64,000 nucleotides of DNA from Dactylorhiza incarnata (lineage: Eukaryota; Streptophyta; Magnoliopsida; Asparagales; Orchidaceae): positions 7,600,501 to 7,664,500 of the forward strand of contig JAWHQI010000099.1 of NCBI GenBank assembly GCA_033032865.1, read 5' to 3'. Each line of letters starts with the position of its first letter. The stretch's first letter is position 1. The position numbers were made by a program, and so were the translations under genes. The notes below the pieces were generated by a model, which did not search any database, had not been told where the DNA came from, and saw only the letters and a list, made by a program, of their open reading frames with translations. Shown in pieces: positions 4,534 through 58,428 of this stretch.

Positions 4534-5687
4534 TGTGAAATTTTCTGAATCTTTATGGAGTGAGCAGGAATCATACAACTTTGAGTTCACAAGCCAAACA
4601 ACCAAAAGCACATGAAGGAAATATAGTCTTTATTGATAACAACAATCTTCATTACAGGGAGAGGTATACATGGCGAGACATGATTTCACCAGTACACAAA
4701 ACCAAAGGAAAAAATACAATGCTGAAAAGAAAGATAACTGAGACCGCACGGTCTGCTTGCCGATCTCGGATAGCTGCCTGACCGCAAACTCTGCCGGTCA
4801 CCGATCAACACTCCTGACCGCTGAGCTTCCGCGACCTCCTTCCGAACTCCACTGATTCTCCCGAACTCCAGCAACCCACACTGCAAGCCACTAGACCGCC
4901 CGAACACTTTCAGAAGAAGAGGTGATCGCTGATGCCCGCACAATCCGTAGAAGCTGCACAAGGAAAATTCAATCAGCAAGACCGACCGGTCACAAGAATT
5001 GAGACCGCAAGAATTAGACGCGAGCTCAGCTTACACTTGGTGCGATTGATGTTAATACTGCTACAGTGGCTCCTATTTATAGGCGTAAGGCCTGATCCAG
5101 TCACCACCCTATGAGATAGGATCACCACCCTCTAGATCGCGCGACCAGAACTGGTCAACCCGCACGATCAGCAACAGATCATTCTGCTTAGGTGAGATTG
5201 CCGGCTTCAACAACAGACCGCGGGAGATCGCCACTCCCACAATGAAGCCGCCCACCACCAATGTTCACAAATGAGACTGCGAACACAACTTGTTTGCTAA
5301 CGCCACATCGAACACAACCTGTTCGCCTGCCAGCCTCCTCCTGAGACCGCGAACAGAGACCGCTCGACTAAGATGCCTTAGCCAGCGAATACAACCAGGA
5401 ACCTGGATAGCCATGAGACCGGCTTCTTGGAAACCTGAATCAACCTGTGCAGTCACACCAGACCGGCACAGCCCTGAGATAGTCAGCCCGCCACGCGGTC
5501 ACAGACCAGACCGCACGGCCTTACCCCAACACCTTGGACACAGAATGACAGTCACGCCAGGAGACCGCGGCTAGACTAAGATAAGTCAGACCGCAAAGCA
5601 GATCGCTAGACGTGCGGTCTCACCAGACCGCGCGATCACCCTGCCAGACCGCCAACTCCCAAAACTTCCACTTCAACATTTTCAACA
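4534..5687 (-). repeat. 3' LTR of D
   Basis: 1154 bases, matching the 29361-30474 copy with several substitutions and indels. It is rich in AGACCGC and its complement GCGGTCT, including the perfect dyad GCGGTCTCACCAGACCGC at about 5613-5630. A TATA-like CTATTTATAG (minus CTATAAATAG) is near 5075-5084. Confidence 0.92.
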
Positions 5688-7560
5688 CTCCCCCTTGAAG
5701 TGGGAAGTGGAAAACAGCCCCAGTAAACTCCTTAGCCGAGTAAACGGCCCCTTCAACAGTGCCTTTGTGAAGATGTCAGCAATGTTGTCCTGACTCCGAA
5801 CATGCTCGACCTAAAGAGACCCCTCCAACACCTTCTCACGAATGAAATGGTGCTCGATATCGATATGATTGGTCCTCGCGTGACAAACTGGATTAGTAAC
5901 CAATTTGAGAGCACTCTCATTGTCGCCGCGAAGCAGATCCAGACCCCGAACCTCCTTATGGACATCTCCAACCAACCTCCTAAGCCAGATGGCTTCCTGA
6001 GCTGCCAAAGCTGAAGCCTTGTATTCCGCTTCTGTGGTTGAGACAGACACGGAATCCTGCTTCTTACTGCACCATGATATAGCCGTGGGGCCCGCCATGA
6101 AGACGTATCCAGACGTCGACTTCTGATCACCCGAATATCCCCCGTAATCAGCATCCATGTACCCATGCACCTCCAAGCCCGCATCCCTCCTGTAAAGGAG
6201 ACCCATATCTGAAGTCGCCTTGACATACTTCAATATACTCTTGGCCGCTAGAAGTTGAGGCATCCGTGGTTCCGCCATATAACGGCTCACCCTGCCAACT
6301 GCATATGCAATATCCGGCCTAGTGATCGTCAGATAGATCAAGCTCCCAACTAGAGCTCGGAACACCAACGGATCTCCCAAAATCCTTCCCTCATCCTTGC
6401 GAAGTTTCATCGCCTTCTCCAGAGGTGTAGAGATGCACTTCCCTTCCTTCATGCCGAACCACTCCACGATTCGCTCCGCATATCCAGCCTGGGACACCAG
6501 CACTCCACTCTCCTTCCTCTACACCTCGAGTCCAAGGAAATGGTGAAGCTCACCCAGATCCTTCATCTCAAACCTGATGGATAGCTCTGCCCGAAGCTGC
6601 GCTACCTCCTCTTTCGAATTCCCCATCACGATCATATCGTCGACGTATAGCAGCACAATGACTTGAAGCTCCCCGCTATTCTTGACGAACAAGCTTGAGT
6701 CTGAGTCTGAAGTACCAAACCCGCAGAATAGGAGATATTCTGCAATCTTTCCATACCACGCCCTCGGCGCTTGCTTCAACCCATACAGGGCCTTCTTCAA
6801 CTTGTAGACATGCTCCGGAAAATCTTCAGATACGAAGCCTGGCGGCTGGACCATGAAGATGTCCTTGTCAATCTCGCCGTACAAGAACGCATTCTTTACG
6901 TCAAGCTGCCAAATCTTCCACCCCCAACACGCCGCCAAGGCAATCACAACCCGAACTGAAGTCATTTTTGCCACTGGACTGAATGTCTCTTCATAGTCTT
7001 CACCGTATTGCTACGAGAACCCCCGAGCCACAAGGCGAGCCTTGTATCGCTCGATACTTCCGTCAGCCTTTTTCTTAAGCTTGTAGACCCACTTGCATGT
7101 CACAGGGGTGATGCCCTAGGGCTTGGGCACCAGAGACCAAGTCTCATTCTTCTCAAGAGCACTCATCTCTTCCTGCATAGCCAAATCCCACTATTCCACG
7201 CCTTTGGCCTTTTCAAAGCTCGATGGCTCCCTCTCATCCAAGGGACCAGCAAAGAAACATGAGACAAAGCTCACCATGTTTCCTCCTGTATAGAGATCAG
7301 GGGCAATGATAGTTCGCTTCGATCTCCGCAATGCCTTCCCCTGACTCGCAGTATCCTCAACTGCTTCTTCCCTAGCTCCTCTCCCAGACGTACTTGGAGC
7401 ATCGCTCCCCCTGCTTCCTGAACCAGAAGCCTCTGTCTCAGAACTAGATATAGATGGACCACCTGGTAACACAGGTAGCTCCACCTGAAGATTTTCCACA
7501 GCTATCTCTGGCTCCTCCACCCTGCTTTCTGGTACCTCAACACCAGAACCCCCTTGTAAG
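5682..7560 (-). pseudogene. D pol: reverse transcriptase and RNase H, with five TAG stops
   Basis: One minus-strand frame runs from about 7560 to a TGA at 5682-5684 just inside the LTR. It holds a Ser/Gly-rich linker, then RT motifs (WQLDVKNAFLYGEI, ALYGLKQAPRAWY, LLYVDDMIVMG with the catalytic YVDD), then copia RNase H motifs (MDADYGGYSGDQKSTSGY, STTEAEYKA, HIDIEHHFIREKV, DNIADIFTKAL). In this frame I find five stops, all TAG: 7191-7193, 7116-7118, 7011-7013, 6519-6521 and 5811-5813. No TAA or TGA interrupts it. The preceding integrase is in another frame, so an indel lies near 7550-7560. Non-functional. Confidence 0.9.
5688..5700 (-). other. Polypurine tract of D
   Basis: CTCCCCCTTGAAG reads CTTCAAGGGGGAG on the minus strand, directly upstream of the 3' LTR, as expected for plus-strand priming. 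Confidence 0.8.
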
Positions 7561-56369: not shown

Positions 56370-57146
56370 TTTTTCCCCTCGGATGGTTCCGCTGACAGGG
56401 CTCTCTCTAGCCGGCAAGGTAGGTTGACCTCCCAGGGAGGGTAAGTACTTTTCCCCTCGGATGGTTCTGCTGACCGGGCTCTCTCTAGCCGGCAGGGCAG
56501 GTTGACCTCCCAGGGAGGGTAAGTATTTTTCCCCTCAGATGGTTCCGCTGACCGGGCTCTCTCTAGCCGGCAGGGCAAGTTGACCTCCCAAGGAGGCTAA
56601 GTACTTTTCCCCTCTGATGGTTCCGCTGACCGGGCTCTCTCTAGCCGGCAGGGCAGGTTGACCTCCCAGAGAGGCTAAGTATTTTCCCCTTATATGGTTC
56701 CGCTGACCGGGCTCTCTCTAGCTGGCAGGGCAGGTTGACCTCCCAGGGAGGCTAAGTATTTTTCCCCTAGGATGGTTCCGCTGACCGGGCTCTCTCTAGC
56801 CGGCAGGGCAGGTTGACCTCCCAGGGAGGGTAAGTATTTTTGCCCTCGAATGGTTCCGCTGACCGGGCTCTCTCTAGTCGGCAGGGCAGGTTGACCTCCC
56901 AGGGAGGCTAAGTACTTTTCCCCTCAGATGGTTCCGCTGACTAGGCTCTCTCTAGTCGGCAGGGCAGGTTGACCTCCCAGGGAGGCTAAGTATTTTTCCC
57001 CTCGGATGGTTCTGCTGACCGGGCTCTCTCTAGCCGGCAGGGGAGGTTGACCTCCCAGGGAGGCTAAGTATTTTTCTCCTCAGATGGTTCCGCTGACTGG
57101 GCTCTCTCTAGCCGGCAGGGCATGTTGACCTCCCAAGGAGGGTAAG
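56370..57146. repeat. 78-bp tandem array, about 10 copies
   Basis: GGTTCCGCTGACCGGGCTCT and GCAGGGCAGGTTGACCTCCC recur with starts at 56381, 56459, 56537 and 56615. It follows gag where the 3' UTR arrays of E and F also lie. The last copy is cut by H. Confidence 0.92.
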
Positions 57147-58428
57147 TGTTGGATCTTGTGGCGCCCTTAGAGGGGGGGGGGGGGTGAATAAGGGCCTTTT
57201 TAAATTATGATTTTTACTTAAGAATTTTTCACCAACTTTCACTTTTCTTAAAAATAATTAATCGAAATTTTCCAAACATAAATTTTATATTAATAAATAC
57301 TCAATTAATTTTCAATAAAGTAACATTCAAAATTTTATTAAATATGACAAAGACATACATGAACATAATGATCTTAATAAAGCTTAAGATCAAGGAAATA
57401 ATGGTAAAATAAAACTTTTACAATTTTACCGATCCTTCTACTAAGGACCGGAAGGCTATGACTTATCTTTCCCTAGAACAAGCCCAAGCCTATCCTCTAG
57501 ATCTTCCCAAGATCTAGATGTAGCACACAAGGCCACGATTTCCCACCAAGCCACGCAAGGACTTGGACGCTCCGCACAAGGAAGCGATTTTCCCCTAAGC
57601 CACGCAAGGACTTAGACGCTCCGCACAAGGAAGCGATTTTCCTTACCAATACAAAGTAAAATGTATATAAATGAAAATACAAGATAAAATAAGAACTCCC
57701 TAGAAATTCAGATCTCTGAAAGGAAGGTTGAAACCTCGAGATGATCGTTGATGTAGAAGCGTGTCCGATCTCGTCTTCAATTTCAAACATTCTCAGCACA
57801 AATGGGAGTTCTTGAGGTTCTGGAGCTCTCTGGTTCGTATGCACTCAGGAAGGAACTTAAAATCTTCAAAGCTTTCAATGCACGAACAGAAAGAACCATT
57901 TTATAGATTTTCACTGTCGCCTGGGCGACATCACTGTCGGAATTCCGACAGCGCAAAACTGCCGCTCGTAGTGCTGTCGTGCAGGCAGTTGCGGTAACTT
58001 CCGAGCTGTCTCCTGGGCAACAGTAGCTGTCGGAAAATTCCGACAGCGCCAAACTGCTGCTCGTCGTGCTGCCGTGCGGGCAGTTGTTGTAACTTCTCTG
58101 CTGTCGTCTGGGCGACATTGACTGTCGGAAAATTCTGACAGCTCCTCTTCATTTTTGTCGTCTGATACTTCTCCAGACTGTAGATTGAGTCGTTCTCATC
58201 TCCTAAATGGGGTGGCACATTCCGTAACTCTTCCTGTATTGAAAGTTATTGCCGTTTGAAGTTTAACATACAAAACTCATCATTTTGTCTTTTTGATCCA
58301 TGAACGAGGACGTGTTTCTTTATTTAACATGTATCACCTGTACACTATAAACACACAAAATAGTAGATCAAATACATCATGGTATTTGTTATTCTCAAAC
58401 CAAGAGATGCGGAAAGCAAGCTCCAACA
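57147..58428 (-). repeat. 3' LTR of H
   Basis: 1282 bases. On the minus strand it starts TGTTGGAGCTTGC, shares TTTGAGAATAACAAAT with C and ends at GATCCAACA. TATA-like CTATAAAATGG on the minus strand at 57896-57906. Just upstream (57910-58150) lies a cluster of CTGTCGG/CCGACAG and CGCCTGGGCGACA words, including near-palindromes CTGTCGGAAAATTCCGACAG. The position equals that of the AGCGC cluster in C. Confidence 0.88.
57910..58150. repeat. CTGTCGG/CCGACAG dyad cluster in H U3
   Basis: Three approximate units of about 90 bases, each with a GTCGCCTGGGCGAC-like dyad and a CTGTCGG...CCGACAG dyad, and some CpG-decayed versions (TTCTGACAG). Confidence 0.85.

Follow-up and report, generated by a model that had tools for sequence, protein, structure and literature searches.

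Short CpG-containing words are clustered in the long terminal repeats (LTRs) of the nested LTR retroelements that fill a 64,000-nucleotide stretch of the Dactylorhiza incarnata genome (contig JAWHQI010000099.1, positions 7,600,501 to 7,664,500; hereafter the window). These clusters are real, and we consider it rather probable that they are cis-regulatory arrays of the 'repeated motif' (RM) type known from Sireviruses, in which the half-sites of one group, CGTCGA and its complement TCGACG, would contact a sequence-specific protein that binds as a dimer, activates, and is encoded by the host. The argument starts from what was directly observed, namely enrichment, spacing, constraint at the DNA level (in families A and B and in a Ty3/gypsy family outside the window), copies within coding sequence, and the positions of the arrays. 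The LTR pairs in the window were obtained by self-comparison, and the elements are referred to as A to E, G and H. The features of A and B, the two families in the window that carry CGTCGA, are as follows (U3, the unique 3' region of the LTR; ORF, open reading frame; N7, a spacer of seven bases).

20643-28231, plus strand: whole A element, inserted in D
20643-21974, plus strand: 5' LTR of A, a Sirevirus-like copia element without pol; matches the sequence from 26882 on at 96.5%, with a CACGG duplication at its flanks
20726-20957, plus strand: U3 array of A, 13 CGTCGA/TCGACG half-sites, with three CGTCGA-N7-TCGACG dyads of which two lie at a distance of 22 bp
21980: TATCAAAGC of A, resembling a primer binding site (PBS)
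22037-24103, plus strand: gag region of A, PF14223 gag with a CCHC zinc knuckle
23892-24110, plus strand: array inside gag of A, a 33-bp repeat (11 codons) of dyads, some with decayed CpGs
24493-24651, plus strand: second internal array of A, immediately 5' of the accessory ORF; in pol-bearing copies, between pol and the ORF in the env position
24853-26657, plus strand: accessory ORF region of A, interrupted in the window copy
26882-28231, plus strand: 3' LTR of A, carrying the array again with 11 half-sites; AGGGGGAG-AT stands before it at 26872
31080-47483, plus strand: B element, 5' LTR 31080-32157 plus 39837-40560, interrupted by C; 3' LTR 45646-47483
31603-31734, plus strand: array in the 5' LTR of B, ATCGTCGA in a 31-bp tandem repeat
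46169-46297, plus strand: array in the 3' LTR of B, ATCGTCGA in tandem

Enrichment of the words in the window

The preliminary description of this DNA claimed dense word clusters for each family, and this was checked against dinucleotide-matched shuffles. The named words were counted in the LTR or array of each element: 12 and 8 in D, 3 and 3 in E, 13 and 11 in A, 7 and 8 in B, 6 and 5 in C for AGCGCC and again 6 and 5 for GGCGCTA, 26, 9 and 6 in G, and 5 in H. Not one of 500 shuffles reached the observed count for any named word, so that the claim of dense clusters holds for all of them. When the best 6-mer was sought without bias, D, A, B, C and H stood above all 100 shuffles; the top 6-mer of E occurred 8 times, below the best of 100 shuffles (9).

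The description also gave every family a word of its own. Five cores counted in seven LTRs gave a nearly diagonal table, with CGTCGA in A and B, TAGCGC in C, CGGTCT in D, GCGAG in E and G, and TGTCGG in H, and no LTR was clearly enriched for any second core. Thus, each LTR has one characteristic core, but the cores are not all private: TCGACG of A and ATCGTCGA of B hold the identical hexamer, and E and G share GCGAG together with stretches that are 72% similar. The other general statements also stood in part. A TATA-like box lies downstream of the U3 clusters in A, B, C, D, E and H, with the exception of one copy of the D word past the box. Inverted pairs with short spacers were found in A, C, G and H, but the D words are nearly all direct (11 of 12 in one orientation in the LTR at 4534-5687), and those of B form a direct 31-bp tandem; tandem repeats also occur in C (112 bp) and in G (41-106 bp), whose words sit in minisatellite DNA of G/C runs. 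Recurrence inside the element was clear in A, with 16 interior copies; E has few, 3 in 9.7 kb, yet none of 500 shuffles reached 3, and the interiors of B and of C contain no copy of their own word. The G array at 55083-55322 counts as interior by our placement of it beyond the LTR end, which was made because of its similarity to E.

Geometry of the CGTCGA dyad

Patterns were counted across the 3.27-Gb assembly of 3184 contigs. CGTCGA-N7-TCGACG was counted 121,091 times and its reversed control 44 times. With all spacers from 0 to 20 allowed, there were 176,581 CGTCGA/TCGACG dyads (control 4,991), 121,091 of which were of the N7 kind, and among the N7 sites listed the spacer sequences were very different from one another. 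The comparable pattern of D, GCGGTCT-N7-GCGGTCT, gave 1692 and 1704 on the two strands, compared with 426 and 368 for its reversed control, a far smaller excess than that of the A dyad.

The everted arrangement, TCGACG-N-CGTCGA, was also abundant (157,516 against 4,494 for the control). Its spacers were confined to a few lengths: among 84 listed plus-strand pairs, which came from the first contigs only with several sites per element and are thus a sample and not a census, 50 had 2-4 bases, 29 had 14, three had 16 and two had 12, and the remaining 15 lengths between 0 and 20 were all empty. Added to the 13-bp step of a dyad, these spacers place neighboring half-sites mostly at a pitch of 21-23 or 33 bp. 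Other pitches were 31 bp in B, often 21 bp in the gypsy family, and 41 bp at locus L053. The 33-bp pitch also occurs in a putative LTR (L055) that has no ORF of at least 120 amino acids over the array, so that it is not only an effect of codons. These pitches lie near whole helical turns, as if the half-sites were helically phased, which would be expected of proteins sitting side by side on DNA and not of RNA hairpins.

At L053, the dyad is part of a tandem array with a 41-bp unit, which appears again every 7-24 kb over a contig of 142 kb. An origin from a ribosomal DNA spacer was considered for this array and rejected, as Rfam gave no match in the 1.2 kb searched.

Constraint among genomic copies

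Copies of each family were found with queries placed outside the motif and were taken from the 40 best-scored matches of 2333 to 5869 candidates. The A U3 set comprised 30 loci, of which L022 was dropped, leaving 29. For B, 16 loci were fetched and 9 used (L079, L087, L088, L090, L091 and L092 did not align, and L093 repeats L085). Thirteen A interiors were fetched, one of which (L042) had no exact gag half-sites and was excluded from the alignments. All loci fetched for D (20), the gypsy family (20), H (17) and C (20) were used, with the window copies or L054 added. The dropped locus, L022, had seemed to carry an inverted A array; it proved to hold an inverted A-family LTR fragment beside a truncated LTR, and because of this structure gives no evidence for orientation independence.

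In the 29 A copies, the motif columns outside CpG varied at 0.0049 compared with 0.073-0.081 for the spacers, a difference of about 15-fold, and none of 222 circular shifts was as low. Single half-sites (0.0043) and dyad arms (0.0057) were equally conserved. Among the changes that did occur in the motif, 42 of 50 were C to T or G to A at CpG, suggesting that decay by deamination continues while the other motif bases are held. Three of the internal arrays were conserved likewise, in sets of six or seven copies: in pol-less A, 1 of 207 and 0 of 237 shifts were as low, and 4 of 174 in the gag array of pol-bearing A. In B, the 8-mer ATCGTCGA varied at 0.025 against 0.119 (0 of 531 shifts as low). 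Conservation among copies, for which the preliminary description had asked for a test, was strong in A, for the B 8-mer and in the gypsy family outside the window, but not for the exact word of D.

The array inside the A gag gene

Among the A loci L039-L051, a longer form of about 8.5-9.1 kb between LTR matches coexists with the pol-less form of about 6.2-6.3 kb, and the LTRs of the two are similar. The order in the longer form is gag, gag array, long frames, second array and the ORF in the env position; in the one longer copy scanned by Pfam (L040), the long frames contain rve and RVT_2.

Within gag, the array biases the choice of codons. In 13 sequences, arginine was encoded by CGN at 138 of 163 positions in the array and at 2 of 152 upstream, and serine by TCG at 75 of 140 and 6 of 422, respectively; p-values on these counts would be overstated, because the copies are related and not independent. 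The peptides encoded by the array differ between pol-bearing and pol-less A, and the same kind of dyads is found in register in both. A diverged relative of A (L052) has the same arrangement in gag with another peptide, and there arginine is CGA in 8 of 8 cases in the array and in 0 of 11 upstream. The comparison of these sequences indicates that the DNA word is kept more than the peptide. In this array, a cis-code overrides the choice of codons in a retroelement protein.

The half-site in a Ty3/gypsy family

An element outside the window (L054) is a Ty3/gypsy retroelement, with SH3_Tf2-1 and a sub-threshold chromo match, and its U3 holds a dense array of CGTCGA/TCGACG. The comparison covered 21 copies, L054 itself and 20 whose query stretch is 86-92% like its own; in these, the non-CpG motif bases varied at 0.097 against 0.228, and none of 256 shifts was as low; part of this array looks tandem-repeated. 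A core that is common across superfamilies, with flank and spacing specific to the lineage, fits related factors better than a single one, and it is in flank and spacing that the idea of a family-specific word survives. Such sharing suggests that many retroelements of this 3.27-Gb genome may be acted on by a single regulator or by a small set of related ones.

Results that weigh against a bound and conserved array

Several results count against reading the clusters as constrained binding sites. When CpG columns were included in the A U3 analysis, 20 of 222 shifts were as low, and for variants common to at least three copies the number was 27 of 222. The constraint in A rests on the non-CpG columns because the CpGs of the motif decay; the present copies are probably methylated. 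Pol-bearing A showed only weak conservation of the array that precedes the accessory ORF (21 of 262 shifts; six or seven copies), and in B the conservation of the bare hexamer did not exceed that of its flanks (62 of 529). In H, 24 of 195 shifts were as low, two subfamilies carrying the word at different positions. The exact word of D did not stand out from its flanks (128 of 425), and a looser form gave a weak trend (37 of 505). We therefore rejected D as a conserved RM array in spite of its enrichment, and for the same reason its array may not be functional. In C, 8-15 TAGCGC sites are present in 22 of 22 copies at differing positions; the reference-based ratio of 0.43 comes from a method that favors motifs, since intact reference sites are chosen, and it was not counted as constraint because D scores 0.42 by that method against 0.88 by an earlier one. 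Finally, the gypsy dyads prefer another spacer (N6 in 31 of 51 nearest pairs, N7 in 5), and CGTCGA is preceded by G or A at 224 of 243 sites in A interiors, but by T at 220 of 223 gypsy and 53 of 54 B sites. Because of this preference for N6 and the lineage-specific base, one factor for all families is doubtful.

Relation to Sirevirus repeated motifs and other known systems

Element A is Sirevirus-like by most of the hallmarks that can be read from its sequence. Five AGGGGGAG polypurine tracts precede its 3' LTR (26155, 26413, 26533, 26551 and 26872), the last followed by AT and then TGTTGGGG (26872-26889), which gives the AT/TG attachment site. A polyC integrase signal, CACCCCCCCTCTAG, lies near 21930 and is also present in B and C, and a palindromic repeated box occurs in U3 and again before the gene in the env position. 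The PBS, ATTGG-TATCAAAGC, has one mismatch in nine to the Sirevirus TATCAGAGC, and the LTR ends in TA, not CA. B, C and H show some of these features: C has three AGGGGGAG tracts and H four near the 3' LTR, and B and C have the polyC signal. The tracts of B are ambiguous, with AGGGGGAT at the LTR and AGGGGGAG only further upstream (42268, 42337, 44123 and 44904). D has a single tract abutting the LTR, the next being 1.7 kb away, and neither multiple tracts nor the AT/TG site. On this basis, we filed D as a classic copia element and E as gypsy.

The RM boxes of Sireviruses were described as palindromic, CpG-rich, high-copy and element-specific, located in the upper LTR half before the TATA box and clustered again ahead of the env-like gene; they were reported absent from 30 classic copia elements, and the study named no common binding factor and called for promoter tests (Bousios et al. 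2010, PMC2829016). Repeated boxes before TATA and before an env-like gene have thus been known in Sireviruses since 2010, and they are a closer parallel than the VANC proteins of Arabidopsis VANDAL transposons that the preliminary description had proposed. The likeness is plain in A, with its U3 clusters before TATA and its extra cluster before the env-position gene, and in H, where CTGTCGG-AATT-CCGACAG has the CGG-CCG core and a TATA-like box stands beside the array. C repeats GCGGTAGC, a word similar to the box of Inga, four times, though its main core is TAGCGC, and GCGGTCT of D resembles CGGTCTGACCG of Osr10, although D is not a Sirevirus by its hallmarks. On the other side, A and B lack the CGG-CCG core (theirs is CGTCGA), as does the published Tnd-1; the A dyads have a long fixed N7 spacer and half-sites at helical steps; an A array lies within the gag coding sequence, whereas the published Results place boxes only in LTRs and around env; and clusters occur here in classic copia (D) and gypsy elements as well. 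The enrichment in D falls outside the published statement that classic copia elements lack the boxes. Relative to the 2010 paper, the N7 dyad excess, the helical pitch, the array in gag coding sequence and the sharing with gypsy go further. We found no paper tying CGTCGA to retrotransposons in the open-licence PMC literature. The spacing of the arrays, their coding-region copies and their sharing between unrelated elements look new and point to a DNA-binding protein.

In maize, Sirevirus LTR palindromes (CACCGGACNNNGTCCGGTG) define a cis-region (Bousios 2016, cited in PMC10760457 and PMC5311732), and the same palindrome is the commonest in structured regions of Helitrons too (PMC10760457), so that sharing between classes of transposable elements has a precedent. 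The word and spacing are different, and those citing accounts mention no coding-region array or helical phasing.

Repeated transcription-factor sites are also familiar from copia U3 regions, as in the BI/BII boxes of Tnt1 and as-1-like TGACG repeats. Those words are different and present in few copies, and they are not known to occur in a coding region.

A proposed model of dimer binding and the explanations that compete with it

The reading that we prefer is the following. Within the group that uses CGTCGA, which comprises A, B and families outside the window, every half-site would be the DNA contact of a sequence-specific protein, and CGTCGA-N7-TCGACG would be the site of a dimer, with neighboring dimers mostly about 22 or 33 bp apart and so presumably on one face of the helix. 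The arrays would activate two promoters, that of the LTR and an internal one ahead of the accessory (env-position) gene; alternatively or additionally, they may keep the chromatin of the element open. The factor is most likely encoded by the host, or there may be a few related host factors, since the identical half-site serves superfamilies that are not related to each other. The preliminary description had offered binding sites as one possibility, and this accounts best for the non-CpG constraint in A, the conservation of single half-sites and the helical spacing, though the binding itself is deduced from these patterns. The fixed geometry, the 121,091 genomic copies and the near-invariant contact bases would make the dyad an easy bait for finding the factor. 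A more ambitious form of this reading, which we hold only tentatively, is a phased dyad code used in two superfamilies: dimer sites on one face of the helix, in LTRs and in coding sequence, with lineage-specific flanks and spacing, would be recognized by factors that are related without being identical, the arrays would hold elements open to transcription over their full length, and part of the gag coding sequence would have been shaped by DNA binding and not by the protein.

The possibility that the binding protein is encoded by the elements themselves follows from the VANC comparison. VANDALs are DNA transposons of the Mutator-like element (MULE) type. The targets of VANC are short motifs in clusters, which differ from one related element to another and evolve through tandem repetition (PMC5735166), and in this they resemble the clusters described here, which also differ between related groups; the VANDAL motif YAGTATTAY is without CpG, its sites are non-coding, and its binder is known and encoded by the element (PMC5735166). 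By analogy, a protein of the element would bind the arrays as loading points and remove methylation element-wide, with the flanking bases matching coevolving proteins. Arrays spread across the whole element, coding sequence included, would agree with this, as would the lineage-specific base before the shared hexamer and the retention of the C word in all 22 copies, and of the H word in two subfamilies, despite turnover of position. The accessory ORF of a pol-less A copy (L047) is moreover related to that of B (36% over 99 amino acids), and both families share the half-site; the B relative has a sub-threshold match to PF20167. However, co-variation of motif and accessory ORF, which the VANC parallel predicts, failed in the one pair compared: the pol-bearing type and the pol-less A element have LTR arrays in common and second ORFs that are unrelated. 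Furthermore, four A accessory ORFs matched no Pfam family at its cut-off, none of the 7987 candidates scored against the pol-less one reached E<=0.001, the half-site is carried by a gypsy element of another superfamily, and VANC21 sites were reported in non-coding regions (PMC5735166). We therefore set the accessory ORF aside as the cognate factor, and we regard a VANC-like system as unlikely.

A role of the arrays in RNA is less likely still. Here the dyad would be a stem with a 7-nucleotide loop in the genomic RNA, serving packaging, dimerization or the production of small RNAs. The U3 and gag arrays do fold better than shuffles (z of -4.3 and -6.7), full-length RNA would contain all three arrays, and in maize small RNAs are in excess at the Sirevirus palindrome clusters (Bousios 2016, cited in PMC10760457). 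But unpaired half-sites are conserved as well as paired ones, changes in the paired arms of three A dyads were one-sided in 19 cases and two-sided in 1, the half-site spacings follow helical steps, and the lowest-energy folds pair distant arms and not N7 hairpins alone. The hairpin idea of the preliminary description thus fits less well than DNA binding.

That the words have no function, having multiplied by tandem duplication from a founder and looking special for their CpG content, is equally improbable overall and already disfavored for A and the gypsy family: tandem repeats in B (31 bp), C (112 bp), G (41-106 bp) and part of the gypsy array, and D and H words not clearly better conserved than their surroundings, would agree with it, but A retains half-sites and their spacing at three places along the element, coding sequence included, with spacers that bear no relation to each other, the spacers of the listed N7 sites differ freely, and the non-CpG motif bases are much less variable than their neighbors in A, gypsy and B.

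Other features of the window

The remaining elements and arrays are listed below.

4534-30474, minus strand: D element, classic copia, LTRs 4534-5687 and 29361-30474; hosts nested E and A
4741-5652, minus strand: D array, GCGGTCT, mostly direct
29568-30408, minus strand: D array in the 5' LTR
8446-20364, minus strand: E element, Ty3/gypsy, LTRs 99.9% alike, LTR words GCGAG/CTCGCGAG
32158-39837, plus strand: C element, nested in the 5' LTR of B, AGGGGGAG at 38382, 38491 and 38623
32311-32645, plus strand: U3 array of C, TAGCGC/GCGCTA, abutting the TATA box at 32652 on its upstream side
38786-39116, plus strand: array in the 3' LTR of C
51675-52567, no strand assigned: G array, GGGCGAG in G/C-run minisatellite
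53886-55322, plus strand: G arrays around a stretch resembling the LTR end of E (54580-54880), before one resembling the gag of E
57934-58128, minus strand: LTR array of H, a Sirevirus-like element, CTGTCGG-N4 or N6-CCGACAG; AGGGGGAG on the minus strand at 58438, 58546, 58587 and 58698

A Pfam scan found copia pol in D, gypsy gag and pol in E, and a B ORF with the sub-threshold PF20167 match; the A ORFs of the window gave copia-type gag, with no pol among the ORFs scanned. In the LTR of E, two units (8804-8890 and 9159-9245) are 78% alike, each with a long GGTCTGC...GCAGACC inverted repeat, and an ORF of 304 amino acids at 11055-11969 lies inside E antisense to gag-pol, without a match in the Pfam scan. 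Two AT-rich stretches of about 1 kb, 73% similar and in opposite orientation, lie inside C (36498-37490) and to the right of the H LTR (59169-60179). A direct pair at 445-2134 and 47808-49432, about 73-79% alike, contains a 29-bp tandem of the TAGTAAAA type and a 27-bp GCGCA-rich repeat.

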